Source: Parasedimentitalea maritima
GTDB lineage: Bacteria; Pseudomonadota; Alphaproteobacteria; Rhodobacterales; Rhodobacteraceae
Assembly: GCF_005771405.1 (NCBI RefSeq)
Contig: NZ_VAUA01000006.1
Span: 21,251-85,250, forward strand
DNA: 64,000 nt
Direction of reading: 5' to 3'
Shown here: positions 21,574 through 49,898 of the stretch, piece by piece
Position numbering within the stretch: position 1 is the first letter of the stretch
Layout of the letters: each line of letters opens with the position of its first letter
Made by a program: the position numbers and the translations under genes
The notes under the pieces: model-generated
What the model saw: the letters and a program-made list of their open reading frames with translations, nothing else
Databases searched by the model: none
Told to the model about the DNA's origin: nothing

Positions 21574-23097
21574 TTATTCTTTTAGCCTGTCCAGCTGCTG
21601 CTTGTAGGCACGCGAAAATTCACGGCTGAACAAATCATGAAAATCATTTTCCGCCTGGTCTGAAATCTCGGTATACAGTTGTTCATAGACGTCCCAATAG
21701 CGCGCCTTCTTGCCCTTAAGCAGCCCACCCAGCCCACTTTTTTTCTCGATCTGTGTTTCCAGTGTTTTGGGATCTAACCGTTTCAAGACACCTTTCAGCG
21801 CTGCTTCCATGCCGGTCAGCATTGCCACCTCATGCGCCTTGATATCGTTCAGCGCCTGTTCGGCGGCAGTTTCCGGACTCAGATATCCCTTGGTGGCTGG
21901 GCGTACCATGGCCTCTACCGCTTGCTCCGGCGTGATAGAAAACTTAAGCGGATTGTTCCCCCCGGAAGAAATCATTGTCTGCTCGATGCGGAACTCTGAC
22001 TTGATCGAGGCGCGGGTCATCAAGATTTCGCGCAGCCCAGTGACGAGAGTACGCATTACCCGCCCCATACGTGCCAGCGTATTGTGATGGTCTTCAGCAT
22101 CCAGCTTCAGATCTTCGGCCCCTAAACCACGTAAGAAGGACTCGATCGCATCAGACTGTTCGGCACTGGACGGCGATGTTGGGGGCGATTTTGTTTCTGG
22201 TGCCTCTTCGACCTCAACAGGTCGAGTAGCAGGCTGAAGCGTTACAGAATCGTCGGGTGCAACCTCGAGTTCAGAGACGTCTTCTGGAAGGGCTTCCTCA
22301 ATCAGAGATCCCGCTGCCGGTAGTTCCTCCGCTGGCGACGGTGCACTGGGGGGTAGCGTTGTTTCTGGCTGGCGATCAGGTTCTTCGCCAATACCGGACA
22401 AAAAGTCATCATCCCAGTCGTCAGGAATTGCCGCGGTAGACTGTGCCATCTGCGGCGCAAATGCGTCCTGCGCTGACGGATTGTGGGTCGGCAGACTGGC
22501 GCCCTCTCCTTCCCGCCCATCAACAGGCTTTTGGAAAAATGGATCCTCTTCCTGCCCCATCGGCGGCAGTAAGTCGTCGATGGGATCCACTGGGTTTATC
22601 TGCGACGGTCCGGTTGGTGTAGGCGTCCCCAGAAGATCATCAAGAAAATCTCCACCAGGCCCAGCATCATCCAACAGTTTCATCGGGTCCGGCGCGTTTT
22701 CCGCCATTCCGTGTGATGCAGAAGCCTGCGCAGCCGGGGCCGCGATCATATCGCCGACCTCAGCCAACTCACTGCGGATCTCCACCACCATTTCATAATT
22801 GCCAACACACAATACATCCCCGTTGTTCAACGGGGTTGGCGTACGGCCTAACGGGATTTTGGAATAGTTTAAGAAAGTACCGTTTGAACTGAGATCAACC
22901 ACGACCAGATTGCCGTTGTGGTCCTCGATCACACAGTGATTGCGTGACAACAATTGGTCGGGATCGGGTAACACCAGATCATTGCTGTCGCCACGCCCAA
23001 TCGTCAGGCTGGGACCACGCATTGGAACTGGAGCGGCATCACCGGGAATGGTGCCCGAACTCTGGAATTTTAGTGTCACTGCCATTGGTGGCGTCAT
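21574..23097 (-). CDS. tagH: T6SS FHA-domain protein TagH
   Basis: Protein of 507 residues. The N-terminal FHA domain (about 8-110) contains the phosphothreonine-binding signature (LTIGRGDSNDLVLPD, LLSRNHCVIED and LSSNGTFLNY). A long acidic, Pro-rich, probably disordered middle (about 120-320) connects to a conserved C-terminal domain of T6SS FHA proteins (about 330-505: FRIEQTMISSGGNNPLKFS, ending SREFSRAYKQQL). By analogy with Fha1 it should be phosphorylated by PpkA and dephosphorylated by PppA to gate assembly. It overlaps the PAAR gene by four bases. Confidence 0.93.
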   Translation of the reverse strand: MTPPMAVTLKFQSSGTIPGDAAPVPMRGPSLTIGRGDSNDLVLPDPDQLLSRNHCVIEDHNGNLVVVDLSSNGTFLNYSKIPLGRTPTPLNNGDVLCVGNYEMVVEIRSELAEVGDMIAAPAAQASASHGMAENAPDPMKLLDDAGPGGDFLDDLLGTPTPTGPSQINPVDPIDDLLPPMGQEEDPFFQKPVDGREGEGASLPTHNPSAQDAFAPQMAQSTAAIPDDWDDDFLSGIGEEPDRQPETTLPPSAPSPAEELPAAGSLIEEALPEDVSELEVAPDDSVTLQPATRPVEVEEAPETKSPPTSPSSAEQSDAIESFLRGLGAEDLKLDAEDHHNTLARMGRVMRTLVTGLREILMTRASIKSEFRIEQTMISSGGNNPLKFSITPEQAVEAMVRPATKGYLSPETAAEQALNDIKAHEVAMLTGMEAALKGVLKRLDPKTLETQIEKKSGLGGLLKGKKARYWDVYEQLYTEISDQAENDFHDLFSREFSRAYKQQLDRLKE

Positions 23098-26195: not shown

Positions 26196-29100
26196 TCATA
26201 AATCATCCAATAAGGCGGCCAGGTCTTCGTCCATGTCGCCGTCGTCATCGTCATCATCACCGCCAAAGCCGGCGAGAAGATCATCCAGGTCGCCGTCACC
26301 GCCTCCCAGATCCAAATCGTCTAACCCCAGATCATCTTTATCATCCCCCTCCGCGTCCGCAGACGCAACAGGCTTTGGATTCGGTGGTGAGGGTTTCGGC
26401 GCGGGCACCCCGGTCCAAGGGCCTAGAATTTCTCCTCCGGCAAGCGACGCAAAGGAGGTCAGACGGATTTCATCCCGTCCTTTGACCGAAGAAACAGCCA
26501 TGAAACCACGCTCTTGTGCCAGAGCAATCTTATCCAAGTTGATGTTACGCTCTGTGCAGGGCAAGGCCACCTGATCGCCGTAACGATCATTGACATAGTG
26601 GAACGGAATCTCGCCCAGCGACATAATTTTCCCCAGTCCCATCGAAGCGCCGTTTTGCTTGAAAGACCTCGCCAGAAGAATTGCCACCAGCACCACCGGA
26701 TTGGCCCAAAGCATTCCACGCAGCCCTTCAGCCTCGGTGAACTCCTCAAATTCAAACTCGTAGATGGGTTCACTTTTGGCCCCATAAGGGCGGCGCAGCA
26801 TAAACCGTGGAGATATCAGCCCCAGATGTCCTGCCTCTGCCATACCGCGCAGCGTATCCCAGGCCGACGCTACCAGGGCAGGCAGTTTGGCTTTTTCCGT
26901 ATCCAGGAACCCGGGTGAAATACCTGCAAAGAATGGCGCATCAACATGCGCCGCAACCCGCGCAATCCGGCCCAACAGTTCAGCATGTGGCGGCGTTTCC
27001 TCAAACTGATACAGCCCGATCAACGCCGAATATCCGCCTCGGCCATTTTCCTCGTCCAGTGGTTCACCTGTCAGCAGTCGAACAAACCCACTTTCTGTCA
27101 GGTCTTCGGCTGCAGCCAGATCGGCGGCAAGCTCTTCGGCGGAGATGTCGTACAACATCACTTCCAGCGTGTCATCGACCTCAACCGAACGTGCGATCAG
27201 ATCAAGCGAGCGCCACTGCCCCTCAAGCGACTGAAATTCGGGGTGATGCAACACCATACGCATCGCATCCGAGAGGGCCTCGTCCACCGCGCCAACCATC
27301 GCCGTCGCATCGGCATCCGGCAGCGCCCGGATATGCGGGCCAACCACACGGGCCAACAAATCCTGCACCGGCGAAGCCTGCCCCAGCTGATTTTCAGCAT
27401 CTCCGATTAGCTGTTGAAAGGCGCTAAGGCGACGATCGGCTGGCACTGCATTACCACCGGATCGTGGTTTGGGTGGCTTGACGCGATTGCCATGCTTTTC
27501 ACCCCATGCGCGCAGGGTCTTGGCCGCATGATCCGCCGTTACTCCGCTTTGCAATTGTTTGCGCAGCCCCACCAGTTCTGAAAACAACTCAACGTTTTCA
27601 TACAACTCATCCGGATGCAGGTCGTCCAGCCCGCCCAGCTTAACAGCTATCCCAGTGCCATCTTTACCAATTGGCAACAGCAATTCAGTGACAAAACTCT
27701 CGATGACATCTTCAACCGTATCCGGATCCAGTAGGATTGCGCGGCGGGCCGCCAGTGCGTCACCTGTTTCAATCTGCCCTTTGGCAGCGCGGCCTGAAAA
27801 ATCCCCCAGAATTGCTAGCCGGAATCTCTTGCGCACCAGTTTTTGAGGCTCTGGTCTGTCGCCGCTAATTGTCCCGTAAGCGAGTTCTGGTTCCTCATTC
27901 TGGTTGGGCTCAGCAGTGGCGGCTTTGTCGGTGTCACCACCACTGTCCAAATCCCCCAGCAAATCGTCCAGATCACTGCCCCCATCGTCGCTGACGTCAT
28001 CCAATCCGCCAAGCAGATCATCCAGATCACCGCCCCCATCGTCGCTGACGTCATCCAATCCGCCAAGCAGATCATCCAGATCACCGCCCCCATCGTCGCT
28101 GACGTCATCCAATCCGCCAAGCAGATCATCCAGTTCACCGCCCTCATCGTCGCTGACGTCATCTAATCCACCAAGCAGATCATCAAGATCCACCTCGGCA
28201 TCATCCTCTTCAGCACCTAATAGTGCATCCAGATCCGAGTCATCCCCCTCCAGATCCCCCAGCAAATCATCCAATTCACTTCCAGTGTCTTGAGCGTCCT
28301 CCGCCTCTGACGTAGCTTCTTCCTCCAATCCAGAAAACAACCCATCCAGATCGTCATCTTCTGCGTCTTCAGCCAGATCCAGATCACCCAACAAATCATC
28401 CAGATCCGAAGCCGCGGAATCATCTTCACTATCGCTAGACGTGGGCTCATCCGCTTCCATCGCAGTGTTTGTATCCTCAGCGTCAATATCAGCCAGAAGT
28501 GCGTCCAACCCGTCACCGTCAGTTGGTGTAGCTGGAGGCTCTTCCTCCGTTAGCCCACTTAGAACATCATCTAGATTCAATCCCTCCGAACCGTCCTCTT
28601 CAGGGGAATCCAATCCTTCCAACATATCTTCCAACGAATTTTCTTCCGACGTAGGGTCGGCTGCCTCAGGCAAACTGCCCAATGCCTCAGCAACAGGATC
28701 AATTGCCTGCTCTTCAGGTACCACATCCAAATCGCCAAGTAGATCCGCTAGGTCATCTACTGGCGCGTCTGCAATATCCTCTGCCACCTCAAGCGCAGCG
28801 AGGTCGCCAAGCACATCAGCGCTGTCATCCTCTTCTGGCGCGTCGATCTCAACTGCCGCCAAACTGTCCAAGGCGTCTGACGCGGCAGTGTCTTCTTCCT
28901 CAGTGGCCTCTAGCGCGGCGAGGTCGCCCAGCACATCGGCGTTGTCGTCCTCTTCAGGCGTGTCGATCTCCACTGCAGCCAAACTGTCCAAGGCATCCGA
29001 CGCGGCAGTGTCTTCCTCCTCGGTCACCTCCAGCGCGGCGAGGTCGCCCAGCACGTCTGCACTGTCGTCCTCCACTGGCCTGTCGATCTCCACTGCGGCC

Positions 29101-30941
29101 AGACTGTCCAAGGCATCCGACGCGGCTGTATCTTCCTCCTCGGTCACCTCCAGCGCGGCGAGGTCGTCCAGCACGTCTGCACTGTCGTCCTCCACTGGCG
29201 TGTCGATCTCCACTACAGCCAAACTGTCCAAGGCATCCGACGCGGCAGTGTCTTCCTCCTCAGTGACCTCCAGCGCGGCGAGGTCGCCCAGCACATCGGC
29301 GCTGTCGTCCTCTTCAGGCGCGTCGATCTCCACTGCAGCCAAACTGTCCAAGGCATCCGACGCGGCAGTGTCTTCCTCCTCGGTCACTTCCAGCGCAGCG
29401 AGGTCGCCGAGCACATCAGCGCTGTCATCCTCTTCAGGTGCATCGATTTCCACTGCAGCCAGACTGTCCAAAGCATCCGACGCGGCTGTATTTTCTTCCT
29501 CAGTGACCTCTAGCGCGGCGAGGTTGCCCAGCACATCGGCGTTGTCATCCTCTTCTGGCGTGTCGATCTCAACTGCAGCCAAACTGTCCAAGGCATCCGA
29601 CGCGGCAGTGTCTTCTTCCTCAGTGACCTCTAGCGCGGCGAGGTCGCCGAGCACATCAGCGCTGTCATCCTCTTCATGTGCATCGATTTCCACTGCAGCC
29701 AGACTTTCCAAAGCGTCCGACGCGGCGGTGTCTTCTTCCTCAGTCACCTCCAGCGCGGCGAGGTCGCCCAGCACATCGGCGCTGTCGTCCTCTTCTGGCG
29801 TGTCGATTTCCACTGCAGCCAGACTTTCCAAGGCATCCGACGCGGTGGTGTCTTCCTCCTCGGTCACCTCCTGCGCGGCGAGGTCGCCCAGCACATCGGC
29901 GCTGTCATCCTCTTCTGGCGTGTCGATTTCCGCTGCAGCCAGACTTTCCAAGGCATCCGACGCGGCAGTGTCTTCCTCCTCGGTCACCTCCAGCGCCGCA
30001 AGGTCGCCGAGCACATCGGCGTTGTCATCCTCTTCAGGCGTGTCGATTTCCACTGCTGCCAGACTTTCCAAAGCGTCCGACGCGGCGGTGTCGTCTTCCT
30101 CAGTGACCTCTAGCGCCGCAAGGTCGCCCAGCACATCGGCGCTGTCATCCTCTTCTGGCGTGTCGATTTCCACTGCAGCCAAACTGTCCAAGGCATCGGA
30201 CGCCGCAGTGTCAACTTCTATAGCAACTTCCTGTGCAGAAAGGGCATCCAGTACTCCGACACTCATATCTTGTGGTACAGGCGCAATTTCGACCGCCGCC
30301 AGGCTGGCCAAGGCCGATGCAGAAGTGTCTTTTTCTGGTAAATTTTCAGGGGCCTGCGCACTCAGATTTGCCAGGATATCACTGCTTGTATCCGCTTCAG
30401 GTTCTGCCAACGCAACACCACGCAGACTTTCCAGCGCGTCCTCCATATCCGCACCGGGGACTTCTGACGACAGCGCTGACAACAAATTAGTATCGCCTAA
30501 AACCTTCTCGATCAGTGCTTCAGCCCCGGACTTCCCATCCATATAGGCCATCAGATTGCTCAACTGGCTACGCGCCTCCAGCAAGGGCTGCAGCGCATCC
30601 ACTTTGGCGGCGATGGCACCCGGGGAAAAATCCGCCATCTTTTCAAAAGTCAGGTCAATCGCCAGATTGCCCTCACCCGTCAGCGTATTAGGCACCGAGA
30701 ATGCAGCTCTGGGTGCCATTGCCCTCATCCGGTCGTCAAAATTGTCAACGTCAATTTCAAGAAACTTACGATCCGCCACCGCCGGCTGCGCCACCTTGGA
30801 TTTACCAGCAAGGTCGCTCATCACACCCATGACAAATGGCAGTTGAACTTTCTTTTCGGCACCGTACAGCTCGACATCATATTCAATCTGCACACGCGGT
30901 GCCCGGTTGCGGGCAATAAATTTTTGTGAACTATCAGCCAT
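26196..30941 (-). CDS. giant TssB - repeat linker - TssB-like/TssC-like sheath fusion protein
   Basis: Protein of 1581 residues with no normal T6SS counterpart. Residues 1-150 are a TssB domain about four-fifths identical by eye to the stand-alone TssB of this cluster (both have SQKFIARNRAPRVQIEYDVE). Residues about 165-243 hold two degenerate repeats; 244-723 hold twelve 40-residue repeats; 724-1030 are an Asp/Leu-rich linker including 18-residue repeats. A second TssB-like segment follows (FRLAILGDFSGRA to GGLDDLHPDEL, about 1030-1130), then a TssC-like domain (about 1170-1515: EFQSLEGQWRSLDLI, FMLRRPYGAKSEPI). The last 120 or so residues of normal TssC are absent, replaced by an acidic tail (1520-1581) repeating DLDDLL. 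The start at 30941 has an AGGGGAGA site and overlaps the channel gene by 8 bases. The gene may encode a baseplate, cap or tether part; it cannot be a normal sheath protomer. Known: TssB and TssC form the sheath. Inferred: everything about its role. Confidence 0.85.
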   Translation of the reverse strand: MADSSQKFIARNRAPRVQIEYDVELYGAEKKVQLPFVMGVMSDLAGKSKVAQPAVADRKFLEIDVDNFDDRMRAMAPRAAFSVPNTLTGEGNLAIDLTFEKMADFSPGAIAAKVDALQPLLEARSQLSNLMAYMDGKSGAEALIEKVLGDTNLLSALSSEVPGADMEDALESLRGVALAEPEADTSSDILANLSAQAPENLPEKDTSASALASLAAVEIAPVPQDMSVGVLDALSAQEVAIEVDTAASDALDSLAAVEIDTPEEDDSADVLGDLAALEVTEEDDTAASDALESLAAVEIDTPEEDDNADVLGDLAALEVTEEEDTAASDALESLAAAEIDTPEEDDSADVLGDLAAQEVTEEEDTTASDALESLAAVEIDTPEEDDSADVLGDLAALEVTEEEDTAASDALESLAAVEIDAHEEDDSADVLGDLAALEVTEEEDTAASDALDSLAAVEIDTPEEDDNADVLGNLAALEVTEEENTAASDALDSLAAVEIDAPEEDDSADVLGDLAALEVTEEEDTAASDALDSLAAVEIDAPEEDDSADVLGDLAALEVTEEEDTAASDALDSLAVVEIDTPVEDDSADVLDDLAALEVTEEEDTAASDALDSLAAVEIDRPVEDDSADVLGDLAALEVTEEEDTAASDALDSLAAVEIDTPEEDDNADVLGDLAALEATEEEDTAASDALDSLAAVEIDAPEEDDSADVLGDLAALEVAEDIADAPVDDLADLLGDLDVVPEEQAIDPVAEALGSLPEAADPTSEENSLEDMLEGLDSPEEDGSEGLNLDDVLSGLTEEEPPATPTDGDGLDALLADIDAEDTNTAMEADEPTSSDSEDDSAASDLDDLLGDLDLAEDAEDDDLDGLFSGLEEEATSEAEDAQDTGSELDDLLGDLEGDDSDLDALLGAEEDDAEVDLDDLLGGLDDVSDDEGGELDDLLGGLDDVSDDGGGDLDDLLGGLDDVSDDGGGDLDDLLGGLDDVSDDGGSDLDDLLGDLDSGGDTDKAATAEPNQNEEPELAYGTISGDRPEPQKLVRKRFRLAILGDFSGRAAKGQIETGDALAARRAILLDPDTVEDVIESFVTELLLPIGKDGTGIAVKLGGLDDLHPDELYENVELFSELVGLRKQLQSGVTADHAAKTLRAWGEKHGNRVKPPKPRSGGNAVPADRRLSAFQQLIGDAENQLGQASPVQDLLARVVGPHIRALPDADATAMVGAVDEALSDAMRMVLHHPEFQSLEGQWRSLDLIARSVEVDDTLEVMLYDISAEELAADLAAAEDLTESGFVRLLTGEPLDEENGRGGYSALIGLYQFEETPPHAELLGRIARVAAHVDAPFFAGISPGFLDTEKAKLPALVASAWDTLRGMAEAGHLGLISPRFMLRRPYGAKSEPIYEFEFEEFTEAEGLRGMLWANPVVLVAILLARSFKQNGASMGLGKIMSLGEIPFHYVNDRYGDQVALPCTERNINLDKIALAQERGFMAVSSVKGRDEIRLTSFASLAGGEILGPWTGVPAPKPSPPNPKPVASADAEGDDKDDLGLDDLDLGGGDGDLDDLLAGFGGDDDDDDGDMDEDLAALLDDL
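27960..28175 (-). repeat. tandem array, 4 x 54 bp (18-residue units)
   Basis: Four copies of a 54-bp unit, nearly identical in the middle copies. They encode DLDDLLGGLDDVSDDGG-type units in the linker just before the second TssB-like segment. More divergent units of the same kind (LDDLLGDLE, LDALLGAEE) lie beyond the array. Confidence 0.93.
28773..30212 (-). repeat. tandem array, 12 x 120 bp (40-residue units)
   Basis: Twelve in-frame copies of a 120-bp unit with no spacing and no length change. They encode alternating half-units of about 20 residues, ASDALDSLAAVEID and SADVLGDLAALEVTEEE, joined by short acidic Thr/Pro segments. Copies differ by scattered substitutions (for example Asp or Glu before SLAAVEI, and TPEE, APEE, AHEE or RPVE in the joint). 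Two degenerate units precede the array at its protein N-terminal side. Such an array should be prone to copy-number change by recombination or slippage. Confidence 0.97.
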
Positions 30942-31782
30942 CGGTCTCTCCCCTTGCTGCCGCAAGTTCTGCGCGTAACGCGCGGATTTCACCGTGCAGT
31001 TCTTTCACATGCTCATCGATTATATCTGTTTCTGACCGTACCAAATTGCGCAGCTGTTCAAATTCTGCTTCGGCGTCATCTTCCACAGCTGTCTGCATCG
31101 TGTTGACCAACAAGCCGATGAACAGGTTCAACACGGAAAAAGCAGTTATGATGATAAACGGGACAAAGAATGCCCAGGCCATTGGAAACTCTATCATCAC
31201 TGGCCGCACAATGCCCATCGACCAACTTTCCAACGTCATGATTTGGAACAACGAGTAGAGTGACCGCCCAAGAGTCCCAAACCATTCGTCGAATGTAGCG
31301 CCGTACATCAGTGTCGCCATGACGGCGAAGACGTAATAAACAATTGACAACATCACGATGACTGCGCCCATGCCGGGCAAGGCATCCAGCAGAGCCTGCA
31401 CAACGGCTCGCATCTGCGGCACCACCGACAATAGCCGCAAGGCGCGCAATACGCGCAGCCCCCGCAACGCTGACAGCCCCCGTGTGTCAGGCAAAAAGCC
31501 GATCGAAACCACAACAAAATCAAAAATATTCCAGGCCGATGCAAAGAACCGCCAGCCATAGGCAAAAAGCTTTAGCGCCAACTCAGCAACAAAAATCGCC
31601 AACACGGCGCGGTCAATCACTGATAGCAACCCGCCGATCTGATCAGTCACCATTGATGACGTACTAAGCCCGAGCGTAATCGCATTGAAAATGATAACGC
31701 CAAGGATCGTATTCCTGACGCTATCCTGCTCGACAAAGGCCCGAGCACGGTCTCTCATACCTATCTCTGGCTTGGCTTCCAT
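30934..31782 (-). CDS. voltage-gated sodium channel (BacNav family)
   Basis: Six-helix ion channel of about 282 residues. The voltage sensor S4 has Arg at every third position (RGLSALRGLRVLRALRLL). The pore loop carries the filter TLESWSM (codons 31216-31236), identical to that of NavAb and characteristic of sodium-selective bacterial channels. After S6 (FSVLNLFIGLLVNTMQTAV) comes an acidic neck and a C-terminal coiled coil (about 245-280) expected to hold the tetramer together, as in NaChBac. The ATG at 31782 was chosen; an in-frame GTG at 31794 is closer to a GGAG site and is possible. The last eight bases overlap the start of the sheath fusion gene, so translation is coupled. A sodium channel inside a T6SS operon is unexpected. 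Confidence 0.92.
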   Translation of the reverse strand: MEAKPEIGMRDRARAFVEQDSVRNTILGVIIFNAITLGLSTSSMVTDQIGGLLSVIDRAVLAIFVAELALKLFAYGWRFFASAWNIFDFVVVSIGFLPDTRGLSALRGLRVLRALRLLSVVPQMRAVVQALLDALPGMGAVIVMLSIVYYVFAVMATLMYGATFDEWFGTLGRSLYSLFQIMTLESWSMGIVRPVMIEFPMAWAFFVPFIIITAFSVLNLFIGLLVNTMQTAVEDDAEAEFEQLRNLVRSETDIIDEHVKELHGEIRALRAELAAARGETDG

Positions 31783-31821
31783 TTGGTGTTGCACTCTCCG
31801 AGGGTTCCCTTTGTTGCAGCT

Positions 31822-32919
31822 TCAGAAAGCTTTGGCCGCGCTGGAGGTCACATCAGCAGCATTTTTGAAGAAATCAGCCCATTTGTTTGAAGTATCCAGA
31901 TTTGCCACTTTCTTGGGCTGTGCCTTGACCAAATCACCCTTGGCCTTTTTCAACGCCGCCAGTACATCGGCAGGCTTGCCGCCTAGCTGGGTTTCGAACT
32001 TCACGAGGTCAGCCTTGCCGCTTTTCAGATCTTTCTGCGCCTGCTTGATGGTTTTATCGCCGCTTTTGTCGCCGTCGAGTTTGGACAGAGCAGTGTCAAA
32101 TTCCTGTTTCACCTGCCCCACCTTCAGGGTCATCGCCTCATGGTTTTTGTTCGCAGCCTCAATTGCAGTCAGCGCCTTGTCGATCGCCTTTTCCGCATTG
32201 CTCACTTCATCTGCAGCGATCAAAACATTGGCCCGATATTGCTTGGCGTATTCCGCGATATCCTTGGCGGTAGAAATCACCAACGATACCGACTTGGTCA
32301 ATAACGCCACCGCCCCAAGGATAGTCGCTACCAGCAATGGAGTCGCTGCACCCGCAGTGGCTACCGTCGCCACAACAGCAAAGGCGATGGCGGTTGCCAC
32401 CACGACAAACTTGATGACTGTCCAGATCAGCTTGCCGTGATCTTTCTTTAGCTTTGATCCTTCCTGGATCTTCTTACAGCCTGCGTCATGGGCTGGCTTG
32501 GTCAATTTACCGATAGCATCCTGATACATCTTTTGCGCTTCCGCCCCGATTTTCACCAACTCGTTCTTTTTGAACGCGTTCATCTCGTCCGAGGCTTGTT
32601 CCACCTCTTTTCCAGTTGGCGGAGTCTTGGCGTATTTCTTGGTAAATGCCTTCTCCATCGACATCATTTCTTTTTCGACGCCATCCAGAAGCTTTTGAAT
32701 CGCCTTCATGAGACCTGCCAGAGTCTTTTTATAGGCCTGCTGAATGGCCTTGCCGACAACCACAAGGTAGGAACTTTTACTGGTGTCACTGATCTTTGTC
32801 AGACCGGAGTTTGTCCAGCTGAAGGTGGCATCCCCCTTTAGCTCGACATATTTCTTCGAGCTGGTCATCTTCATTTTTTCAACGACTTTGTAGCCACTTG
32901 CTTCCATAACAAACTGCAT
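31822..32919 (-). CDS. lysine-rich membrane protein of the T6SS operon, function unknown
   Basis: Protein of 365 residues, not recognised. It is very rich in Lys and Ala. The N-terminal part (about 1-160) is largely helical and charged. A hydrophobic block at about 165-225 (WTVIKFVVVATAIAFAVVAT, then LLVATILGAVALLT) could form two membrane helices. The rest (about 230-365) is again amphipathic helix with coiled-coil character. No signal peptide is seen. A hydrophobic hairpin flanked by long charged helices is typical of colicin-like and other pore-forming toxins, so a T6SS effector is one possibility; a scaffold for the neighbouring channel is another. The start is backed by AGGGGG. It lies 17 bases after clpV and about 40 bases before the channel gene. 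Confidence 0.7.
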   Translation of the reverse strand: MQFVMEASGYKVVEKMKMTSSKKYVELKGDATFSWTNSGLTKISDTSKSSYLVVVGKAIQQAYKKTLAGLMKAIQKLLDGVEKEMMSMEKAFTKKYAKTPPTGKEVEQASDEMNAFKKNELVKIGAEAQKMYQDAIGKLTKPAHDAGCKKIQEGSKLKKDHGKLIWTVIKFVVVATAIAFAVVATVATAGAATPLLVATILGAVALLTKSVSLVISTAKDIAEYAKQYRANVLIAADEVSNAEKAIDKALTAIEAANKNHEAMTLKVGQVKQEFDTALSKLDGDKSGDKTIKQAQKDLKSGKADLVKFETQLGGKPADVLAALKKAKGDLVKAQPKKVANLDTSNKWADFFKNAADVTSSAAKAF

Positions 32920-32936: not shown

Positions 32937-35645
32937 TCAATCGAATGAATAGCTGAACTCACCGTCATCAATATCGATTTTGACCTTCTCAACCTCTTTG
33001 CCTTCCATCAGGCGGCGCAGGAATTCAGCTGAGATGTCAGGCAGCATCGTATTGGTCACAATTGCGTCGATCATCCGCCCACCAGATTCCAATTCCTGGC
33101 AACGCTCAACGATCTTATCGACCACCGCATCCGAATATTCGAACGGCACATTGTGTGACTCCATCACCCGCTTTTTGATCCGGTTCAGCTGCAGCACAGT
33201 GATCTTAGCAATCATGTCCGGGCTAAGTGGATAATACGGAATGGTGACCAAGCGACCCAGTAGCGCTGCTGGGAAGATTTTTAGCAGTGGGTCGCGCAGC
33301 GCCTTGGTGATGCCATCTGGATCGGGCAGCAGATCCGGATCACTGCACAGATCCATGATCAGTTCAGACCCAGCGTTTGAAGTCAGCAGGATAAGAGTGT
33401 TTTTGAAGTCAATCACCCGGCCCTCGCCATCCTCCATGACGCCTTTGTCAAAGACCTGGAAAAAGACCTCGTGCACATCGGGGTGGGCTTTTTCGACCTC
33501 GTCCAGCAGCACAACCGAATATGGTTTGCGCCGCACCGCCTCGGTCAACACACCGCCTTCGCCATACCCGACATATCCCGGAGGCGCACCTTTCAGGCTG
33601 CTGACGGTGTGGGCCTCTTGGTATTCGGACATATTAATGGTGATGACATTCTGTTCGCCACCATACAGCACTTCGGCCAGCGCCAGTGCGGTTTCAGTTT
33701 TACCCACGCCGCTGGTCCCGGCCAGAAGGAACACGCCAATGGGTTTCGACGGATTGTCCAACCCAGCACGGGATGTCTGAATGCGCTTGGCAATCATCTT
33801 CATCGCGTGATCCTGGCCGATCACCCGTTTGGCCAGATGCTCTTCCAGGTTCAGAATAGTTTCAATCTCATCGCTGACCATGCGGCCCACCGGAATACCA
33901 GTCCAGTCACCAACTACCGATGCCACCGCCTGGTGATCCACAATCGGCAGGATCAGCGGGCTTTCAGCCTGCAGGGTTTCCAGTTCAGCATTCTTGTCCT
34001 TGAGCTGCTGCATCAGATCAGCGCGAGCTTCATCGTCCAACGGACTATCACCAGCCTCTTCCTCGTTTTCGGCGGGAGCGTCCACTGGCGCCGCGCCTTC
34101 GCGTAGCTTGGCGCGCAGATCCAGGATCTCTTCGACAACGGCCTTTTCTGCATCCCAACGTTCGGTCAGGCCAACCAGCCTTTCTTCCTCGGCTGTTTTA
34201 GCAATCTCTACCGCTTCACGACGATCGCCGACCTCATAGCCTGCGGTTTCATCACGACCAATGATAAGCAATTCGGTAGTCAGAGCCTCAATCCGGCGCT
34301 GACAGTCATCTACCTCGGCTGGTACAGCGTGTTGACTAACCGCAACGCGGGCACAGGCAGTGTCCAATAGGCTGACTGATTTATCTGGCAGTTGCCGGGC
34401 TGGAATATAGCGTGCCGACAGGCTGACCGCTGCCTCGATGCCTTCGTCCAGCACCTGCACGCGGTGGTGCTTTTCCAACATTGACGCAATACCGCGCATC
34501 ATCAGGGTCGCTTTGGGGATGGAGGGTTCATCCACCTGCACCACCTGAAAGCGACGGGTCAGGGCCGGATCTTTTTCAATGTATTTTTTATATTCAGCCC
34601 AGGTGGTTGCGCCAATGGTGCGCAGGGTGCCACGCGCCAACGCCGGTTTCAGCAAGTTAGCCGCATCGCCGGTACCCGCAGCCCCCCCTGCCCCAACCAA
34701 AGTATGGGTTTCGTCAACAAACATCACAATCGGCGTAGCGCTGGACTGCACCTCATCAATCACCTGACGCAAACGATTTTCAAACTCGCCCTTCATGCTG
34801 GCCCCGGCCTGCAACAGGCCCACGTCCAACATCAGCAACCGAACATCATGCAGTGCTGGTGGCACGTCACCACGGGCAATGCGCAGAGCAAAGCCCTCGA
34901 CCACCGCTGTTTTACCAACGCCAGCCTCCCCGGTCAGGATCGGGTTATTCTGGCGACGGCGCATCAACACATCAACGATTTGGCGGATCTCTTCGTCCCG
35001 GCCAACAATCGGATCAATCTCACCATTGCGGGCCTGCTCGGTCATGTCAGTGCAGTACTGTTCCAGCGCCTCGCCCTTGCCCATGGCCGCCGGCGCCATC
35101 GCGTCTGACGCCTCGCCCGGAGCCGCACCACCGCCTGTGGTCGAACCATCCTGCGCGCCCATGGTTTCTTCGGGCGAACCATGGGTGATTGAGACAAAGT
35201 TGTCTGCCAGATCATCCGCCCCGATGCGTGCAAGTTCGGGCGTCATCGACGACAGGATATTGCGTAAGGCCGGGGTTTTCAGCATTCCCAGCAACAGATA
35301 GCCACTGCGCACCTGATTTGCCGAATACAACAGCGACCCCCAAACCCAGCCTCGCTCCATCGCGTCCATCAGGTGATCCGACAGATCTGAGATCGTCGAG
35401 GCCCCACGCGGCAGCATATCCAGCGCCCGCGTCATTTCAGCCGCGATTTTACCGGGATCAAGATCATAATGTTCAACAATCCGGTGCAAATCGCTGTCTT
35501 GCCCGGCAAGAATCTGATGCATCCAATGCACCAGTTCTACATAAGGGTTGCCCCGCATTTTGCAGAACACAGTAGCGCTTTCAACAGCTTGATACCCCAA
35601 TACATTCAACTTACCAAACAGGGCAACGCGGCTAATCTCAGTCAT
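32937..35645 (-). CDS. clpV: T6SS sheath-recycling ATPase ClpV (TssH)
   Basis: AAA+ protein of 902 residues that disassembles contracted TssB/TssC sheath. The N-terminal Clp-N domain (about 1-160) recognises sheath. The first ATPase has Walker [14 protein letters not shown], the middle coiled coil follows, and the second ATPase has [18 protein letters not shown] with the Walker [13 protein letters not shown]. The C-terminal D2-small domain closes the protein. Length and architecture are normal. It follows tssG after 19 bases. Downstream lie the three atypical genes before vgrG. Confidence 0.95.
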
Positions 35646-40483: not shown

Positions 40484-41980
40484 TCAGGCACCTTTTTCCG
40501 AGGGCAGCTTAGATACCAGCCGCAGCGAGACAGAAAGGCCTTCGAGCTGGTAATGCGGGCGCAGGAAAAACTTAGAGCTGTAATAGCCCGGATTGCCCTC
40601 GACCTCTTCCACCACCACTTGGGCGGCGGCGAGAGGCTTGCGCGCCTTTTCGTTCTCCGAGGAGATCTCGGCGTTGAAATCAACGTAATTGTTGATCCAA
40701 TCCTGCAGCCAGGATTCCATGGCCTGGCGGCTTTTGAATGATCCAACTTTGTCTCGGACCATACATTTCAGATAGTGTGCAAACCGACAGGTGGCGAACA
40801 AATAAGGCAGTCGCGCACCAAGGTTGGCGTTCGAAGTGGCATCCGGATCATCGTATTCAGCGGGTTTGTGCAGCGATTGCGCACCCATGAACGTAGCCAC
40901 GTCCGTATTCTTTCGGTGGAGCAGAGGCATCATGCCATTCTTTGCGAGCTCTGCTTCGCGCCGGTCATCAATAGCGATTTCCGTCGGACATTTCTGATCG
41001 ACACCACCATCGGTGGTCGGGAAAGTATGCGATGGCAGACCTTCCAATGTACCGCCACTTTCAACACCGCGAATACGCGAACACCAACCATAGGATTTGA
41101 ATGATCGGGTGATGTTCATTGCCATGCCATAGGCCGCATTGACCCAGGAATAATGACCACTGTCAGCGCTGCCTGTATCTTCTTCAAAGGCAAATTCTTC
41201 CACTGGATCAGTTTTCGACCCATAGGGCATACGACCGAGGAAGCGTGGCATGGCCAAACCAACATATTTGGCATCTTCACTTTCGCGCAGGCTGCGCCAT
41301 GCGGCGTATTCCGGCGTTTGAAAGATCTTGGTCAAATCGCGTGGGTTAGATAGTTCCGACCAGCTGTCCATCTGGAACAGCGATGGTTTCGCACCGGTGA
41401 TCAAAGGTGCATGGGATGCCGCTGCAATTTTGGACAGTTCTCCCAGCAATTCGATATCTGGTGGGGACTGGTCAAAATGATAATCGGCTACCAAAGATCC
41501 ATAGGGCTCACCGCCCAATTGGCTAAATTCTTCGGTGTAGATTTTCTTAAAGATCGGCGATTGATCCCAAGCGGTCCCTTTGAATTTCTTCAGGGTCTTG
41601 TGCATCTCTTTCTTTGAGATGCTCATCACACGGATTTTCAGCTGTTCGTCGGTCTCGGTATTGTTGACCAGATAATGCAGCCCGCGCCAGGCGCTTTCCA
41701 TCTGCTGAAATTCTTCATTGTGCAGAACCAGATTGACCTGTTCGGTCAGCTTCTTGTCGATCTCGGCAACAATGCTTTCGATAGAGCGCAGCGCGTCATC
41801 GCTGATTAACCCGGTATTGGCCAACGCCTGTTCCGCCAGCGTCTTAACTGCGGATTCCACCGCGGTCTTGGCTTGGTCCGATTTGGGCCGGAATTCTTTT
41901 TGCAGCAGGTTGGCAAATTCACTGGAGCCAAATGCTTCTTCACCACCAGCGGCTTCTGCTTCGAGTTGTTCTTCAGCCAT
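40484..41980 (-). CDS. tssC: T6SS sheath large subunit TssC
   Basis: Protein of 498 residues, a normal TssC (ImpC/VipB). Signature segments include FQQMESAWRGLHYLVNNTET, YGSLVADYHFDQSPPDIELL, FLGRMPYGSKTDPV and the C-terminal FFLRPHYQLEGLSVSLRLVS. The C-terminal region after residue 370 or so, missing from the fusion protein of this cluster, is present here. The start has an AAGGAGG site. It follows tssB after 11 bases, and the two should polymerise as the contractile sheath. Confidence 0.96.
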   Translation of the reverse strand: MAEEQLEAEAAGGEEAFGSSEFANLLQKEFRPKSDQAKTAVESAVKTLAEQALANTGLISDDALRSIESIVAEIDKKLTEQVNLVLHNEEFQQMESAWRGLHYLVNNTETDEQLKIRVMSISKKEMHKTLKKFKGTAWDQSPIFKKIYTEEFSQLGGEPYGSLVADYHFDQSPPDIELLGELSKIAAASHAPLITGAKPSLFQMDSWSELSNPRDLTKIFQTPEYAAWRSLRESEDAKYVGLAMPRFLGRMPYGSKTDPVEEFAFEEDTGSADSGHYSWVNAAYGMAMNITRSFKSYGWCSRIRGVESGGTLEGLPSHTFPTTDGGVDQKCPTEIAIDDRREAELAKNGMMPLLHRKNTDVATFMGAQSLHKPAEYDDPDATSNANLGARLPYLFATCRFAHYLKCMVRDKVGSFKSRQAMESWLQDWINNYVDFNAEISSENEKARKPLAAAQVVVEEVEGNPGYYSSKFFLRPHYQLEGLSVSLRLVSKLPSEKGA

Positions 41981-41991
41981 TGTTACCCTCC

Positions 41992-42507
41992 TTACTCTTC
42001 AGCGTCGCTACTGCCACCCGGCGCTGCCTGCGCCGCGAGGGTTTTCAACAGACTTGGATCCTGAATGATCTTTGCAATCAAATCTTCAGCACCAGTTTTA
42101 CCGTCCATATAGGTCATCAGGTTGGACAGCTGAGTACGCGCTTCAAGCAATTCACGCAGCGGCGCCACTTTGGCGGCAATTGCTGCTGGCTTGAAATCAT
42201 CCATGCTCTCAAAGGTGATATCGACCGCGAGATTGCCTTCACCCGTCAGGGTATTTGGCACCGTAAATGCCGCCCTTGGCGCCATTGATTTCATGCGGTC
42301 GTCAAAGTTGTCGACATCAATTTCCAAGAACTTACGATCGGCAACACTAGGCTGCTCGACCTCGGATTTGCCAACCAAATCGCTCACCACCCCCATCACA
42401 AAGGGAAGTTGAACTTTCTTTTCTGCACCATAAAGTTCGACATCATATTCGATCTGAACTCTGGGCGCCCGGTTTCGCGCTATGAATTTTTGTGAACTGC
42501 CGGCCAT
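41992..42507 (-). CDS. tssB: T6SS sheath small subunit TssB
   Basis: Protein of 171 residues, a normal TssB (ImpB/VipA). Key segments are FIARNRAPRVQIEYDVELYG, KKVQLPFVMGVVSDLVG and LLEARTQLSNLMTYMDGKTG. The start at 42507 is preceded by AAGGAG with 8-nt spacing. Most of the protein is nearly the same as the first 146 residues of the giant fusion protein encoded 11 kb downstream, which points to a gene duplication. Confidence 0.96.
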   Translation of the reverse strand: MAGSSQKFIARNRAPRVQIEYDVELYGAEKKVQLPFVMGVVSDLVGKSEVEQPSVADRKFLEIDVDNFDDRMKSMAPRAAFTVPNTLTGEGNLAVDITFESMDDFKPAAIAAKVAPLRELLEARTQLSNLMTYMDGKTGAEDLIAKIIQDPSLLKTLAAQAAPGGSSDAEE

Positions 42508-42573
42508 CTGGTACTCCTTACTCGTCAATCGTTACGCCACCACACCACAGAGAATGGGTGCGGGCGGCAAAAT

Positions 42574-43626: not shown

Positions 43627-43799
43627 GCAAGCGACCTCCAGAAAATTGGTCTTCGCAGTCCAAGCTTTGCCATCAGGGTAGAGAAATACACCTCAGGAGA
43701 AGCTGGATTGCGAAACAATAAACAATAACTTGACCCCAAGTGAGCCTTATCGTTTTGTTAAAGTCAATTAGATTCACCTGTTTTTGTGGAGACCTCGTT
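43627..43799. promoter_or_regulatory. divergent promoter region, T6SS operon / right flank
   Basis: The 173 bases between tssA and the unknown basic protein gene must drive the 30-kb T6SS operon leftward and the ExbB/ExbD operon rightward. The middle (about 43705-43770) is AT-rich and holds a direct repeat (AACAATA twice, around 43714-43730). No convincing sigma-70 or sigma-54 promoter could be picked by eye. Confidence 0.4.
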
Positions 43800-44645
43800 A
43801 TGGTCGCAAGCCGCGTATTGGGCGAAGATGTTAGGTCAATGGTGCGCAAAGGCGCCCGTGAGCGGATGTGCTTTGGCTTTTGTTTGGACAAACAGAACGA
43901 CCCGTTATTGATGGTCGAGCCGGGTAAAAAGCCCGAAGCTCTGCGTGCTCCACTAAAAAACGAAGGTGGCGGTCCACCAATGATATGGGGCACCTATGTT
44001 GTGCGCTCAGATCAGATGGAGATGATCTGCGAGAAAGTATCTGCCAAAACAGTCACCGGGCTGAAAAAGTTTCTGCGCAAGAATCAGCCTAAGGTCAATG
44101 TGCTATTCTACGACAAAGGCGGCAACCTTCTGGACAGCCTCAAGCCAGAGAAGTCAGATGGTGTGGTTAGCGACGACAAGGTGTCAGATCTGGCCCCGCC
44201 GGGTGACAGCGGCAAGTCTGCACAGGAACTGGTGAAACGTCTGAAGAGGATCCATCCTCGCATCGCTCTGGCCCCTGGTCCATTGGAAATGAAGCTGAAA
44301 CGCGCGTTGGCCAGATCTGTAAAACTGGTCAACGACGGCAAACTGCAAGAGGCAGAGACGCTCATTACCATGATCGAAATGGCCTTGGCCAAAATAGGCA
44401 AGACCATTGAGAATGACAAACGCACCCAAGCCCGTGCGCAACAAAGTCGGGACCGTATGAGCCTGGGCGCAGGCGTAAAACGAGCCCAGGCCCTGCGTGC
44501 CAATGTTGCGCGCACCCCTGGCACGACACGCAGTAAATTGGATCGCGCGGTGCACAAGGCTGCCCAATTACTGAAGTCTCGTGACATGAACGGGGCAAAC
44601 AAAATGATGGACCGCATTGAAAAAGCACTGGCAACGATCAACTGA
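43800..44645 (+). CDS. unknown basic protein beside the T6SS operon
   Basis: Cytoplasmic protein of 281 residues, not recognised. The N-terminal half (about 1-105) looks globular with beta-strands (ERMCFGFCLDKQNDPLLMVE, KVNVLFYDKGGNLLDSL). The C-terminal half is helical and very rich in Lys, Arg and Ala, with a helix pattern seen twice (LKRALARSVKLVNDGKLQEA near residue 165 and LDRAVHKAAQLLKSRDMNGA near 245). The start at 43800 has GGAG 8 bases upstream; an in-frame GTG at 43740 has no ribosome site. First gene of the rightward operon and divergent from tssA, so a role tied to the T6SS, such as chaperone or regulator, is plausible but unproven. Confidence 0.7.
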   Translation: MVASRVLGEDVRSMVRKGARERMCFGFCLDKQNDPLLMVEPGKKPEALRAPLKNEGGGPPMIWGTYVVRSDQMEMICEKVSAKTVTGLKKFLRKNQPKVNVLFYDKGGNLLDSLKPEKSDGVVSDDKVSDLAPPGDSGKSAQELVKRLKRIHPRIALAPGPLEMKLKRALARSVKLVNDGKLQEAETLITMIEMALAKIGKTIENDKRTQARAQQSRDRMSLGAGVKRAQALRANVARTPGTTRSKLDRAVHKAAQLLKSRDMNGANKMMDRIEKALATIN

Positions 44646-45093: not shown

Positions 45094-45711
45094 ATGACCG
45101 CATTTTGGGAACTGCTGGGCACCGGGGGACCGGTAATCGCACTGCTGGCGCTTATGTCTGCGATGTCGCTGACGCTTATTGGCGTGAAACTGGCGCAGTT
45201 GTGGCGGGTGCGATCAGGCGAAGATATGCGCACAAGTGCCCTAGAGCATTGGAAAGGCGGCGATCGCCACGCGGCAATGGCGGCCGTATCGGATGGCCGC
45301 TCTCCGGCCGACCGGGTGATGAGCTATGCCATGCAGGCACTGAACAGTGGACTGAAAGGGCCCCGTCTCGAAGGCGAATTACTGCGGCGGGGCAACGAAG
45401 AAGTGGCGCAGATGAACAGCCTGATCCGGTTGTTGGAACTGGTAGCCATGGTGTCGCCATTGCTGGGCCTCTTGGGCACCGTGTTAGGCATGATCCAGTC
45501 CTTTCAGGAGTTGGAGTTGGCACAGGGTGCGGCAAATGCCTCGGTGCTTGCGGGTGGTATCTGGCAAGCCCTTTTGACTACGGCTGCCGGGCTATTAGTG
45601 GCCATTCCTGCCGCCATTGCTGCTGGGTTGTTTGCTGCGCGAATTGAAGGCGCAGCGTTGCACATAGAAAGCGCGGTTGGGCAGTTGCTGCTGATAAACG
45701 AGACCAGCTAG
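45094..45711 (+). CDS. ExbB/TolQ/MotA-family proton-channel subunit
   Basis: Inner-membrane protein of 205 residues with three membrane helices (about 10-30, 110-135 and 150-178). The typical MotA/TolQ/ExbB core is present: LIRLLELVAMVSPLLGLLGT, VLGMIQSF and ALLTTAAGLLVAIPAAIAAG. Together with the two ExbD-like proteins encoded downstream it should form a proton-driven motor. The neighbouring protein in the TonB position has an atypical ectodomain, so the machine probably does not serve standard TonB-dependent uptake. Confidence 0.9.
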   Translation: MTAFWELLGTGGPVIALLALMSAMSLTLIGVKLAQLWRVRSGEDMRTSALEHWKGGDRHAAMAAVSDGRSPADRVMSYAMQALNSGLKGPRLEGELLRRGNEEVAQMNSLIRLLELVAMVSPLLGLLGTVLGMIQSFQELELAQGAANASVLAGGIWQALLTTAAGLLVAIPAAIAAGLFAARIEGAALHIESAVGQLLLINETS

Positions 45712-45727
45712 CCTAGGAGGCGGTGCG

Positions 45728-46144
45728 ATGAACCTCAAACGGCAAGCCCAGCCCCGCGCCCTGATTTCATTGGTGCCAATGATCGACGTGATGTTGATTT
45801 TGCTGGTGTTTTTCATGGTCACTTCGACCTATCTGAACCTCGATATGATCCCGGCTTTGCGACCGGATACAGACAGCGTATCAACGACCGTGAGTGCGCA
45901 ACCCGAAGGCTCGATCATAATCCGAATTGGTGCTGATGGCCACGCTGTGCTGCGCGGTCAGCAACTCGACGCTGACGCGGTGACAGACCATCTGACAACT
46001 GAGATTGCCCATGAGCCTTTGACACAAGTCCTAATCTTGCCGTCAGGCGCTGCCCCTATGCAGGCCCTCATTTCAGTAATGGACAGCGCAGCATTGGCCG
46101 GTGTGCAACGGCTGCGCGTTCTGAGACTGGAGGCCAGCCAATGA
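45728..46144 (+). CDS. ExbD/TolR-family subunit 1
   Basis: Protein of 138 residues with one N-terminal membrane helix that carries the proton-path Asp (LVPMIDVMLILLVFFMVTS) and a periplasmic ExbD/TolR domain (about 55-135). The start is backed by AGGAGG. It is followed by a second ExbD gene with a four-base overlap. Two different ExbD proteins per ExbB are known from other bacteria and suggest a heteromeric stator. Confidence 0.92.
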   Translation: MNLKRQAQPRALISLVPMIDVMLILLVFFMVTSTYLNLDMIPALRPDTDSVSTTVSAQPEGSIIIRIGADGHAVLRGQQLDADAVTDHLTTEIAHEPLTQVLILPSGAAPMQALISVMDSAALAGVQRLRVLRLEASQ

Positions 46145-46548
46145 AACTAAGTCGCCCCCCTCGCGCAGCACAATCTGAAACGATTATCGCCCTGATCGAT
46201 GTGGTGTTCTTCCTGCTGGTCTTTTTCATGTTGATCGGACGCATGGACGCCACCGCCCCGTTTGAAGTCCGCCCCCCGATGGCGCAATCAGGGCGCGACA
46301 TGCCAGCCGGGGGGGTGACCCTGGCCGTAGCCGCAAATGGCTCTCTGGCGTTGGATGGCGACGAAATCAGCACGCAAGACCTGGCAACCGCACTGACCAG
46401 CCAACTGACACAGCAACCCGATCTACGCCTACGTATCAACGCACATCGGGCCACCGAACTGCGCCATGTTCTGCCTTATGTGACACAGGCCGAACAATTG
46501 GGCGTGCGCGATGTCGTGCTGGTCGTCACTCCAGAGCGTGACGAGTGA
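46141..46548 (+). CDS. ExbD/TolR-family subunit 2
   Basis: Protein of 135 residues, paralogous to the preceding gene, with the membrane helix and conserved Asp (IALIDVVFFLLVFFMLIG) and a periplasmic domain with the family pattern (GGVTLAVAANGSLALDG, DLRLRINAH, VRDVVLVVTP). It overlaps the first exbD gene by four bases (ATGA) and its own TGA overlaps the GTG start of the next gene. Confidence 0.92.
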   Translation: MKLSRPPRAAQSETIIALIDVVFFLLVFFMLIGRMDATAPFEVRPPMAQSGRDMPAGGVTLAVAANGSLALDGDEISTQDLATALTSQLTQQPDLRLRINAHRATELRHVLPYVTQAEQLGVRDVVLVVTPERDE

Positions 46549-48107
46549 GGCTTCGTCCCGGCATATGGGCTGGCGGGATTTTAGGCTCGGCTTTGGCTCA
46601 TTTGGGATTTGCGGCGCTGCTGCTATGGTCGTTGCGGCCTGATACAGTTGAAAACCAACCCAGCCCTCAAAGCGAACTACAGCTCCAAGCCTACCGCATC
46701 CCGCGCAGCGAGGCAGTACCACAAGCTCCAACAGCGGATCCAGCCGCCCAAGCTGACACCCAAGGAGAAGGCCTTGCGACTGGAGAAATTCCTAAATCGA
46801 CAGCTTTTTCGATGGTGCCCCAAAGCGACCAGATCGAACCCGCTCGCCCCACCAGTACCACGCTCAACGCAGCCAGAGATCCGGCTCCGCAGGCTACACC
46901 TTTAGCACCGACCCCTGCCACACTGCTCCCCGCGCCTTCTCCAAGTGATCAAGTTGTTGCAACAGCGCCAGCGGTAACACCTCTTGTCGTAAGTGAAGCG
47001 ATGGTTGCAGACGTAACAGCGGCGGCTACGCCTGAAGTTTCTTTGACGAAAGCCGTGCCTCTGCCAGTTTTGCAGTCCTCCTCAATCGCCCAACCCTCAC
47101 CCGTACCGCTGGCCCAGGCTCCTACCACAGCAGACGCAGCACCGGTACTTGCCCCCGACGCGCAACCATTGGACAATACGCAACCCACGAGCACGCAAAG
47201 CTTGCAACAAACCCCGGATGCAACCGCTTTGACTGAACACCCTCCTGCCCCGGTTACTGCCTCACTGTCCAAGCCAGATGTGCCCCACATTAAGGCCGCG
47301 TTGGCTTTTTCTGGCGATGGGGCCGGTCAGGCTGACCCAGTGTCACTGGCTGCTTTCCAGAGCTTTATGCAGCCCGGTGACATCAGCGCAGCGGGTGATC
47401 CGTTGCGCGATGGGGTGTCAGGGATTCTGGCTGCGGTGCCATGTTCGCGTTTGCAAGTCGTGTTTGATCCTGAAACTGCAACACTCAATCTGCGCGGCCA
47501 TCTCCCAGAAACCGGATTACGCGCCCCGGTTCTGGCGGCTCTACAAGCGCAAATGGGAGCTGACATTCAAGTCTCGGATCAAATGAAAATTCTACCCCGC
47601 CCGCAATGTGGTGCACTGGCAGGAATTTCAAATGTCGGACTGCCCCAAAGTACCGACCAAATCACCAACCCCCGGCTAATTGGCGCTGACACCCACGCCC
47701 GAGTGCTGGATTACGTTGGCGGCGATCGTCTCTTTTTTGATCTGACTGCACCAGACTATGACGCTTATGTATATGTTGATTACTTTGATGCAGGCGGAGA
47801 TGTGCTGCACTTATCTCCCAATGCTGCAGCCCCTCTTTCGCTGACCCCGGCCCAAAACCGCTTGCGGGTAGGTGCCAAAGCCGCTTCAGATCCGGGACTG
47901 CAAATCACTGTAGGACCGCCCTATGGTCAGGAAATTGCTGTTGCTTTTGCTGCATCACACCCGCTGTATTCGGATTTACGTCCGATTAGCGAAGAGGCCG
48001 CGCCCTATTTGACCTGGCTGTCAGAACGCGTCAGCGAAGCACGCGCTGCACATGCCGATTTCAAAGGGGAATGGGTCTATTTCTTTGTGTCCACCACGAC
48101 GCAATAA
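46545..48107 (+). CDS. TonB-position protein with BON-like and DUF4384-like periplasmic domains
   Basis: Protein of 520 residues starting at GTG inside a GTGA overlap with exbD2. One membrane helix (about 7-27) is followed by a long Pro/Ala/Thr-rich stretch (about 30-245), as in TonB. Instead of a TonB C-terminal domain it has a BON-like segment with two Cys (VPCSRLQVVF and RPQCGALAG, about 295-360) and a C-terminal DUF4384-like domain (about 380-520: YVYVDYFDAGGDVLHLSPNA, SHPLYSDLRPISEEA). The same pair of modules forms the periplasmic part of the PpkA kinase. It may couple proton motive force to an envelope partner shared with PpkA. The function is inferred. Confidence 0.75.
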   Translation: MRLRPGIWAGGILGSALAHLGFAALLLWSLRPDTVENQPSPQSELQLQAYRIPRSEAVPQAPTADPAAQADTQGEGLATGEIPKSTAFSMVPQSDQIEPARPTSTTLNAARDPAPQATPLAPTPATLLPAPSPSDQVVATAPAVTPLVVSEAMVADVTAAATPEVSLTKAVPLPVLQSSSIAQPSPVPLAQAPTTADAAPVLAPDAQPLDNTQPTSTQSLQQTPDATALTEHPPAPVTASLSKPDVPHIKAALAFSGDGAGQADPVSLAAFQSFMQPGDISAAGDPLRDGVSGILAAVPCSRLQVVFDPETATLNLRGHLPETGLRAPVLAALQAQMGADIQVSDQMKILPRPQCGALAGISNVGLPQSTDQITNPRLIGADTHARVLDYVGGDRLFFDLTAPDYDAYVYVDYFDAGGDVLHLSPNAAAPLSLTPAQNRLRVGAKAASDPGLQITVGPPYGQEIAVAFAASHPLYSDLRPISEEAAPYLTWLSERVSEARAAHADFKGEWVYFFVSTTTQ

Positions 48108-49709: not shown

Positions 49710-49898
49710 GCTCACACTCCAACCCAGCAACTAACCAACTAGCCGCAATAGGCATAGCTTAGCAGAAAACCGTTAGCAAACTATCGCGATACTTGCCTAA
49801 AGGTGCAAGTTTCCTGTTAGTATGTGAAAACCACACGAAGTTTTTGCTTCGGCCTTAGCGCCAAAGTTCCGTTTAATTGTTTTGAAAGTGGCTTTGCT

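Follow-up and report, generated by a model that had tools for sequence, protein, structure and literature searches.

What use would a type VI secretion system (T6SS) have for a protein in which one long acidic chain joins two sheath-like parts? The question is raised by tssCL, a gene on the minus strand of the window (the whole analysed stretch of 64,000 nucleotides from contig NZ_VAUA01000006.1 of Parasedimentitalea maritima), where it stands within a T6SS cluster. Its product, TssCL, carries a full sheath subunit (TssB) at its N-terminus and, beyond the acidic linker, a TssB-like and a TssC-like part that we call the C-module. The answer that we prefer, although we give it somewhat less than an even chance, is that TssCL is a sheath-borne adaptor, which brings to the sheath a partner that also docks on Fha.

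Architecture and conservation of TssCL

The frame can be divided into the following parts (aa, amino acids; TRF, tandem-repeat search):

26196-30941, minus: whole tssCL open reading frame (ORF), 1,581 aa, from an ATG at 30941, preceded by GGGGAG, which resembles a ribosome binding site, to a stop at 26196
30462-30941, minus: N-terminal TssB domain, residues 1-160 (PF05591, E 7.6e-63; TIGR03358; 78% identity to the cluster's own TssB)
27894-30461, minus: acidic repeat linker, residues 161-1016, with 38 [LVI]xxL-type motif starts (from the sequence)
28777-30212, minus: 12 tandem 120-bp (40-aa) units, with a motif each 20 residues (TRF)
27950-28190, minus: 4.5 tandem 54-bp (18-aa) units, LDDLLGGLDD (TRF)
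27543-27845, minus: TssB-like part of the C-module, about residues 1033-1133 (hhalign; second PF05591 stretch)
26409-27308, minus: TssC-like part of the C-module, about residues 1212-1511, ending at the expected start of the gpW/gp25-like TssC domain
26199-26408, minus: acidic tail with LDDLLAGF and a C-terminal DLAALLDDL (conservation among 74 homologues)

Pfam recognizes TssB/VipA in two stretches (PF05591, E 7.6e-63) and the VipB N-domain (PF05943, E 1e-42). The gpW/gp25-like C-terminal domain of normal TssC (VipB_2, PF18945), which the cluster's own TssC has, is not listed by Pfam for TssCL even at E 1, and no FHA domain is matched by Pfam. As a whole protein, TssCL scores 201 bits against the TssB model TIGR03358, above its curated cut-off of 97, and 142.9 bits against the TssC model TIGR03355, below its cut-off of 271.5. 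The order of parts that the original prediction had read from the letters alone (TssB, linker, TssB-like, TssC-like and acidic tail in one frame of 1581 residues) is thus borne out by the ORF, Pfam and hhalign, as are the absence of a normal TssC C-terminus and the presence of standard tssB and tssC in the cluster, both found by Pfam. Its linker of about 880 residues is indeed acidic but measures 856 aa, and its "nearly identical" TssB domains share 75-78% identity.

The N-terminal domain has nearly the same consensus as standalone TssB. The fused TssB has a median ratio of nonsynonymous to synonymous change (dN/dS) of 0.098, and the C-module one of 0.091 (108/703 pairs, dS 0.1-1). Together, the consensus and this purifying selection indicate that the fused TssB probably enters the sheath. 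TssB carrying a C-terminal mCherry is reported to work in Serratia (PMC4594159), so a sheath could tolerate TssB with cargo at this end. The prediction that this domain is fit to pair with TssC is therefore supported. The fused copies have evolved about twice as fast as the standalone ones (median dN 0.167 vs 0.088, with dS saturated). All 25 fused copies compared are nearer to their own genome's TssB than to the mean of other genomes' TssB, for which shared descent alone may be partly sufficient. On a TssB tree, 23 of the 25 fall outside the standalone clade; the copy of G026 lies at the base of that clade, and that of G263 groups with the standalone TssB of the same genome, pointing to gene conversion or to a second fusion event. 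The trees have long branches and weak forks.

The C-module (residues 1017-1511) is a single chain. Positions 17-117 of A1, the alignment that was folded and that holds sequences of the window and related loci only, match residues 29-130 of the cluster's own TssB (hhalign, probability 70%, E 4e-5), and the predicted fold is the body of a TssB-TssC sheath protomer. Arms and a handshake domain staple the sheath together. In the C-module neither the TssB N-arm, the TssC N-arm nor the gpW/gp25-like handshake domain was detected, so the module is probably unable to polymerise and probably cannot build a sheath, in line with the predicted inability of this end to complete the lattice.

The linker contains 36% Asp+Glu and 0.5% Lys+Arg, is probably disordered, and has motif starts that are mostly spaced 20 residues apart. 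Across 56 linkers (346-1192 aa; 33% acidic, 1.6% basic), LDxLL occurs 492 times, compared with 17.5 in shuffled sequences. Derivation of the repeats from the TssB C-terminal helix was considered and stays a hint, as TssB ranks second only in the proximal-motif scan (4.7 bits). At the other end of the chain, a C-terminal pattern like MDAELAALLxDL is found in 72/74 homologues, with an LDDLLAGF-like stretch before it in 68/74; the homologue from Eleftheria ends in MDAELAALLASLD. The tail with its C-terminal motif is absent from the homologues in G441, G972 and G778.

A search of 295 genomes of the family found the C-module in 32, at 49% identity or more, and a TssC-level match only in 36 others (E 1e-20). 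A second TssB is present in 25 of the 32 and in none of the other 7; in G231, G044 and G089 it is on short frames on a different contig from the C-module, and these were counted as fused by inference. A separate scan with one genome per species gave 50 loci. Merged, the two sets comprise 74 distinct C-module loci (locus and row counts include near relatives): 55 fused, 9 unfused, one (L072) that keeps the linker and lacks TssB, and 9 cut by contig ends. At most five, four or three candidates per genome were scored, so that distant unfused homologues may be missed. Outside the family, there was one full-length match among 385 genomes (G441), two more among 398 (G972 and G778), and one on plasmids (Eleftheria). 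Since 55 of the 65 classifiable loci are fused (L063, whose TssB is degenerate, is counted here) and the whole frame is intact in 11 of 12 complete plasmids fetched, tssCL is not an assembly join; the homologue search that had been proposed as a check in Rhodobacteraceae thus excludes this. The twelfth plasmid, P. marina pW43D, has frameshifts in tssCL and in the neighbouring channel and vgrG genes. In the PLSDB gene table, all 11 plasmids whose frame is intact (L185-L193, L195, L196) have the tssCL coding sequence annotated as beginning past the TssB domain or close to its end; this annotation hides the fused TssB, although the table is incomplete and a separate entry may exist. In L. aquaemixtae M597 (L188), fha and tssK are annotated in pieces, and this plasmid's T6SS may be broken or its assembly faulty.

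A possible adaptor and the motif shared with Fha

In the proposed mechanism, the N-terminal TssB would pair with ordinary TssC and enter the sheath in a few copies. From it would hang the acidic leash, whose dozens of acidic-leucine motifs are plain in the sequence and may serve as binding sites. The leash would end in the single-chain protomer body, acting as a putative non-polymerising head, followed by the near-invariant C-terminal peptide. The motif array would then recruit the Fha-docking partner to the sheath. Head and tail would form the core of the protein, and TssB with its leash an often-lost addition that raises local concentration at the sheath.

The link to Fha comes from a motif in the cluster's Fha/TagH protein:

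22627-22653, minus: GDFLDDLLG motif in Fha/TagH (gene 21574-23097; motif scan)

In Fha the motif sits between the two domains, with one or two copies in most Fha proteins, compared with dozens in TssCL. An LD[DAE]LL core is present in 64/75 Fha proteins (a count that, like those for the looser motif form and for the channel below, includes some genomes twice) and in 0/503 other cluster proteins tested, a set that holds few copies of some kinds (tssA 1, tssB 1, tssC 2, hcp 2) and neither tssM nor tagF. When a distal-linker profile is used, the top-scoring window among 7,666 lies in Fha. No paper that combines "type VI secretion" with "LDDLL" was found in the literature search.

ClpV is the first candidate for the partner, as yet unproven, because Fha1 is required for ClpV1 foci in P. 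aeruginosa (PMC3953482) and because FLDDLL resembles the VipB motif LLDEII (PMC4239648). A multivalent array would also suit the phase separation through which, together with membrane anchoring, the PpkA-TssW-Fha axis of Acidovorax is reported to act (PMC12607579).

Several observations weigh against this adaptor. The charged groove of P. aeruginosa ClpV1 (R6, D87) blocks VipB-like helices (PMC4239648), and the cluster's own ClpV has the same type of groove (R6, D87), so that VipB-like docking there is not advanced as a settled claim. The looser motif form is kept in 6/7 Fha proteins from clusters without the C-module; thus the Fha partner does not need TssCL. It is not present between the Fha domains in G441, G778 and Rhizobium K102. 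The proximal-linker profile places Fha no higher than fourth (4.2 bits, after tssL at 5.0, tssB at 4.7 and tagF at 4.3), and acidic low-complexity sequence can yield LDDLL-like strings by bias. The absence of TssB from L072, its degeneration in L063 and the 9/65 unfused loci indicate that the core function does not depend on anchoring to the sheath. Binding of a partner by TssCL, through any interaction, is itself a proposal. Finally, the adaptor leaves unexplained a strong association with the adjoining gene.

The sodium-channel neighbour and other explanations

That gene, which the original prediction missed along with the motif shared with Fha, lies immediately upstream:

30934-31794, minus: voltage-gated sodium-channel-like gene, 286 aa, filter TLESWSM (PF00520, E 1.1e-38); its stop overlaps the tssCL start by 8 bp

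Its product has the Ion_trans domain and the LESWS-type sequence of bacterial voltage-gated sodium channels, the latter being presumably their selectivity filter. It is possible, though unlikely, that the head or tail of TssCL binds this channel-like protein and that the leash ties it to the sheath; depolarisation (e.g. by an incoming attack) or sheath movement would then be passed between channel and sheath, the two steps together being what we hold unlikely. The channel gene adjoins the C-module in 58/63 testable loci, and the two overlap by 4, 8 or 11 bp in 53/55 measured pairs, some from the same genome. LESWSM is found in 64/64 channels. Of the 36 T6SS genomes in which no C-module was detected, 8 were inspected at the empty slot, and in all 8 of these sister clusters the channel is absent as well, clpV running on to vgrG directly or (L235) across a stretch of about 1.3 kb that is unassigned. 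Among Rhodobacteraceae plasmid records, 22 carry a full-length C-module, and the set with a channel match of at least 58% consists of exactly these 22. The host genome has a second channel, 51% identical, on another contig, so the one beside tssCL looks like a dedicated copy. However, no channel adjoins the C-module at 5/63 loci (3 unfused, 2 fused), and none was found anywhere in G188, G077 and G263 at E 1e-20. Nor was one found in the stretches read around the four non-Rhodobacteraceae homologues, of which G441, G778 and G972 have a channel elsewhere. A channel is likewise present elsewhere in 7/8 empty-slot genomes (47-54% identity). Gene overlap, moreover, suggests co-expression rather than binding. 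Because the channel accompanies both fused (51/53) and unfused (6/9) C-modules, it is not tied to the TssB part.

The channel and a sheath-tethered, Fha-like array might also form a two-gene cassette, through which membrane potential or sodium entry controls the building, firing or recycling of the T6SS; this would be an electrically gated T6SS, the boldest of the readings, and we consider it improbable. Among the best matches of the literature search, no paper linked a T6SS to a sodium channel. A 365-aa protein encoded between the clpV and channel genes (31822-32919, minus) has no family match over the cut-off; among the matches listed, weak relatives (29-33%) occupy the same place in L097 and L106.

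About as improbable as the cassette, and rated marginally below it, is a cap or terminator: the C-module, docked on one end of the sheath, would halt its growth, while the fused TssB served as a neighbouring anchor. Special sheath paralogues occupy the ends of extracellular injection systems, and the lack of a handshake domain and of detected arms would suit such a cap. Against this, arms that could hold the last ring are not seen in the C-module, and it is missing from 8/8 inspected sister clusters whose gene order is otherwise the same, so this class of T6SS probably works without it.

It is very unlikely that TssCL is a functionless relic, decaying after duplication and fusion. At least 8 switches between fused and unfused are counted on the tree of C-modules (14 if cut rows are scored as not fused), and TssB is lost or degenerate in two loci, as decay would predict; yet dN/dS is about 0.1 in both domains and the C-terminus is near-invariant. 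Least probable of all, and hardly tenable, is a molecular ruler (the measuring role that had been suggested for the linker), which a long linker with a sheath-like domain at both ends brings to mind, because linker length varies over the range given above, differs on complete plasmids by repeat units among conspecific strains (five L. aquaemixtae, 656-734 aa; four L. caerulea, 785-892 aa) where a ruler would keep it constant, and the 9/65 unfused loci lack both TssB and a long linker.

Cluster context and relation to known systems

The cluster around tssCL contains normal tssB and tssC, hcp, tagJ, tssE, tssF, tssG, clpV, vgrG, a DUF6931 gene and fha, together with tssK, tssL, tssM, tagF, a phosphatase, tssA and a protein kinase. 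The components to which TssCL has been compared are:

32937-35645, minus: clpV/tssH, ClpV1 class (R6, F10, I85, D87, L88; residue comparison)
40484-41980, minus: standalone tssC with handshake domain (PF05943 + PF18945)
41992-42528, minus: standalone tssB (PF05591)

DUF6931 was rejected as a specific TssCL partner; it is matched in 37/45 searched genomes, including 29/36 T6SS genomes that gave no C-module match in the family scan. The cluster has a caspase-domain protein on either side (7854-9353, plus; 48222-49730, minus). A 301-aa protein adjoining tssA (43740-44645, plus) has no Pfam or NCBIfam match. Near tssA are also a MotA/TolQ/ExbB-family gene and a DUF4384 gene (45094-48107, plus), and the same neighbourhood in Leisingera sp. 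M527 has two ExbD genes; MotA/TolQ/ExbB together with ExbD suggests a proton-driven accessory module.

The finding is sound and the protein odd, and its design was already in print. Suria et al. 2022 (PMC9515649) named TssCL, an apparent fusion of sheath genes whose function they gave as not known, in roseobacter T6SS clusters of the H1 type. The original prediction, which knew of no described T6SS part of this design, is overtaken on that point and, as a whole, partly supported. The protein is the same: a single long frame combines two VipA domains with one VipB domain, and the cluster has normal tssB and tssC as well. The main text of that paper uses none of the terms linker, repeat, disordered, sodium, ion channel and ion trans, the available parts of it give no mechanism, and among the literature matches listed the name TssCL occurs nowhere else. 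To that description are now added the unfused homologues, the Fha motif, the absence of detected arms and of a handshake domain, the observations that speak against a ruler, and the channel cassette. Four Tateyamaria clusters are reported to carry two tssC genes instead of tssCL (PMC9515649), which, judged by the description, would fit the unfused form. A protein that has had a name since 2022, and for which no function was found in the literature, is made testable by its anatomy; the tools are a natural TssB fusion, natural unfused versions, an empty-slot control, a motif that among the proteins tested is otherwise confined to Fha, and an adjoining channel gene. If the channel link were true, this bacterial sodium channel would acquire a role and the T6SS, possibly, an electrical input.

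Compared with TssB/VipA and TssC/VipB, TssCL has a full TssB as its N-terminal domain and, in the C-module, what is predicted to be the TssB-TssC protomer body; unlike them, the C-module shows neither arms nor a gpW/gp25-like handshake domain. With Fha/TagH it shares the LDDLL motif but not a recognizable FHA domain. A second TssC-like protein in a T6SS cluster is also known from Agrobacterium and Rhizobium as ImpD/TssC40, which in A. tumefaciens is needed for Hcp secretion (PMC3702570). Orthology with TssCL was rejected by comparison with the positional counterpart in Rhizobium sp. K102, encoded between tssC and tagJ (the Agrobacterium protein itself was not compared); it extends beyond the C-module end and has no TssB-like part, the opposite truncation. 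In extracellular injection systems and R-pyocins, the single-chain sheath proteins likewise continue past the part that aligns to the C-module, into what we take to be their handshake domain.
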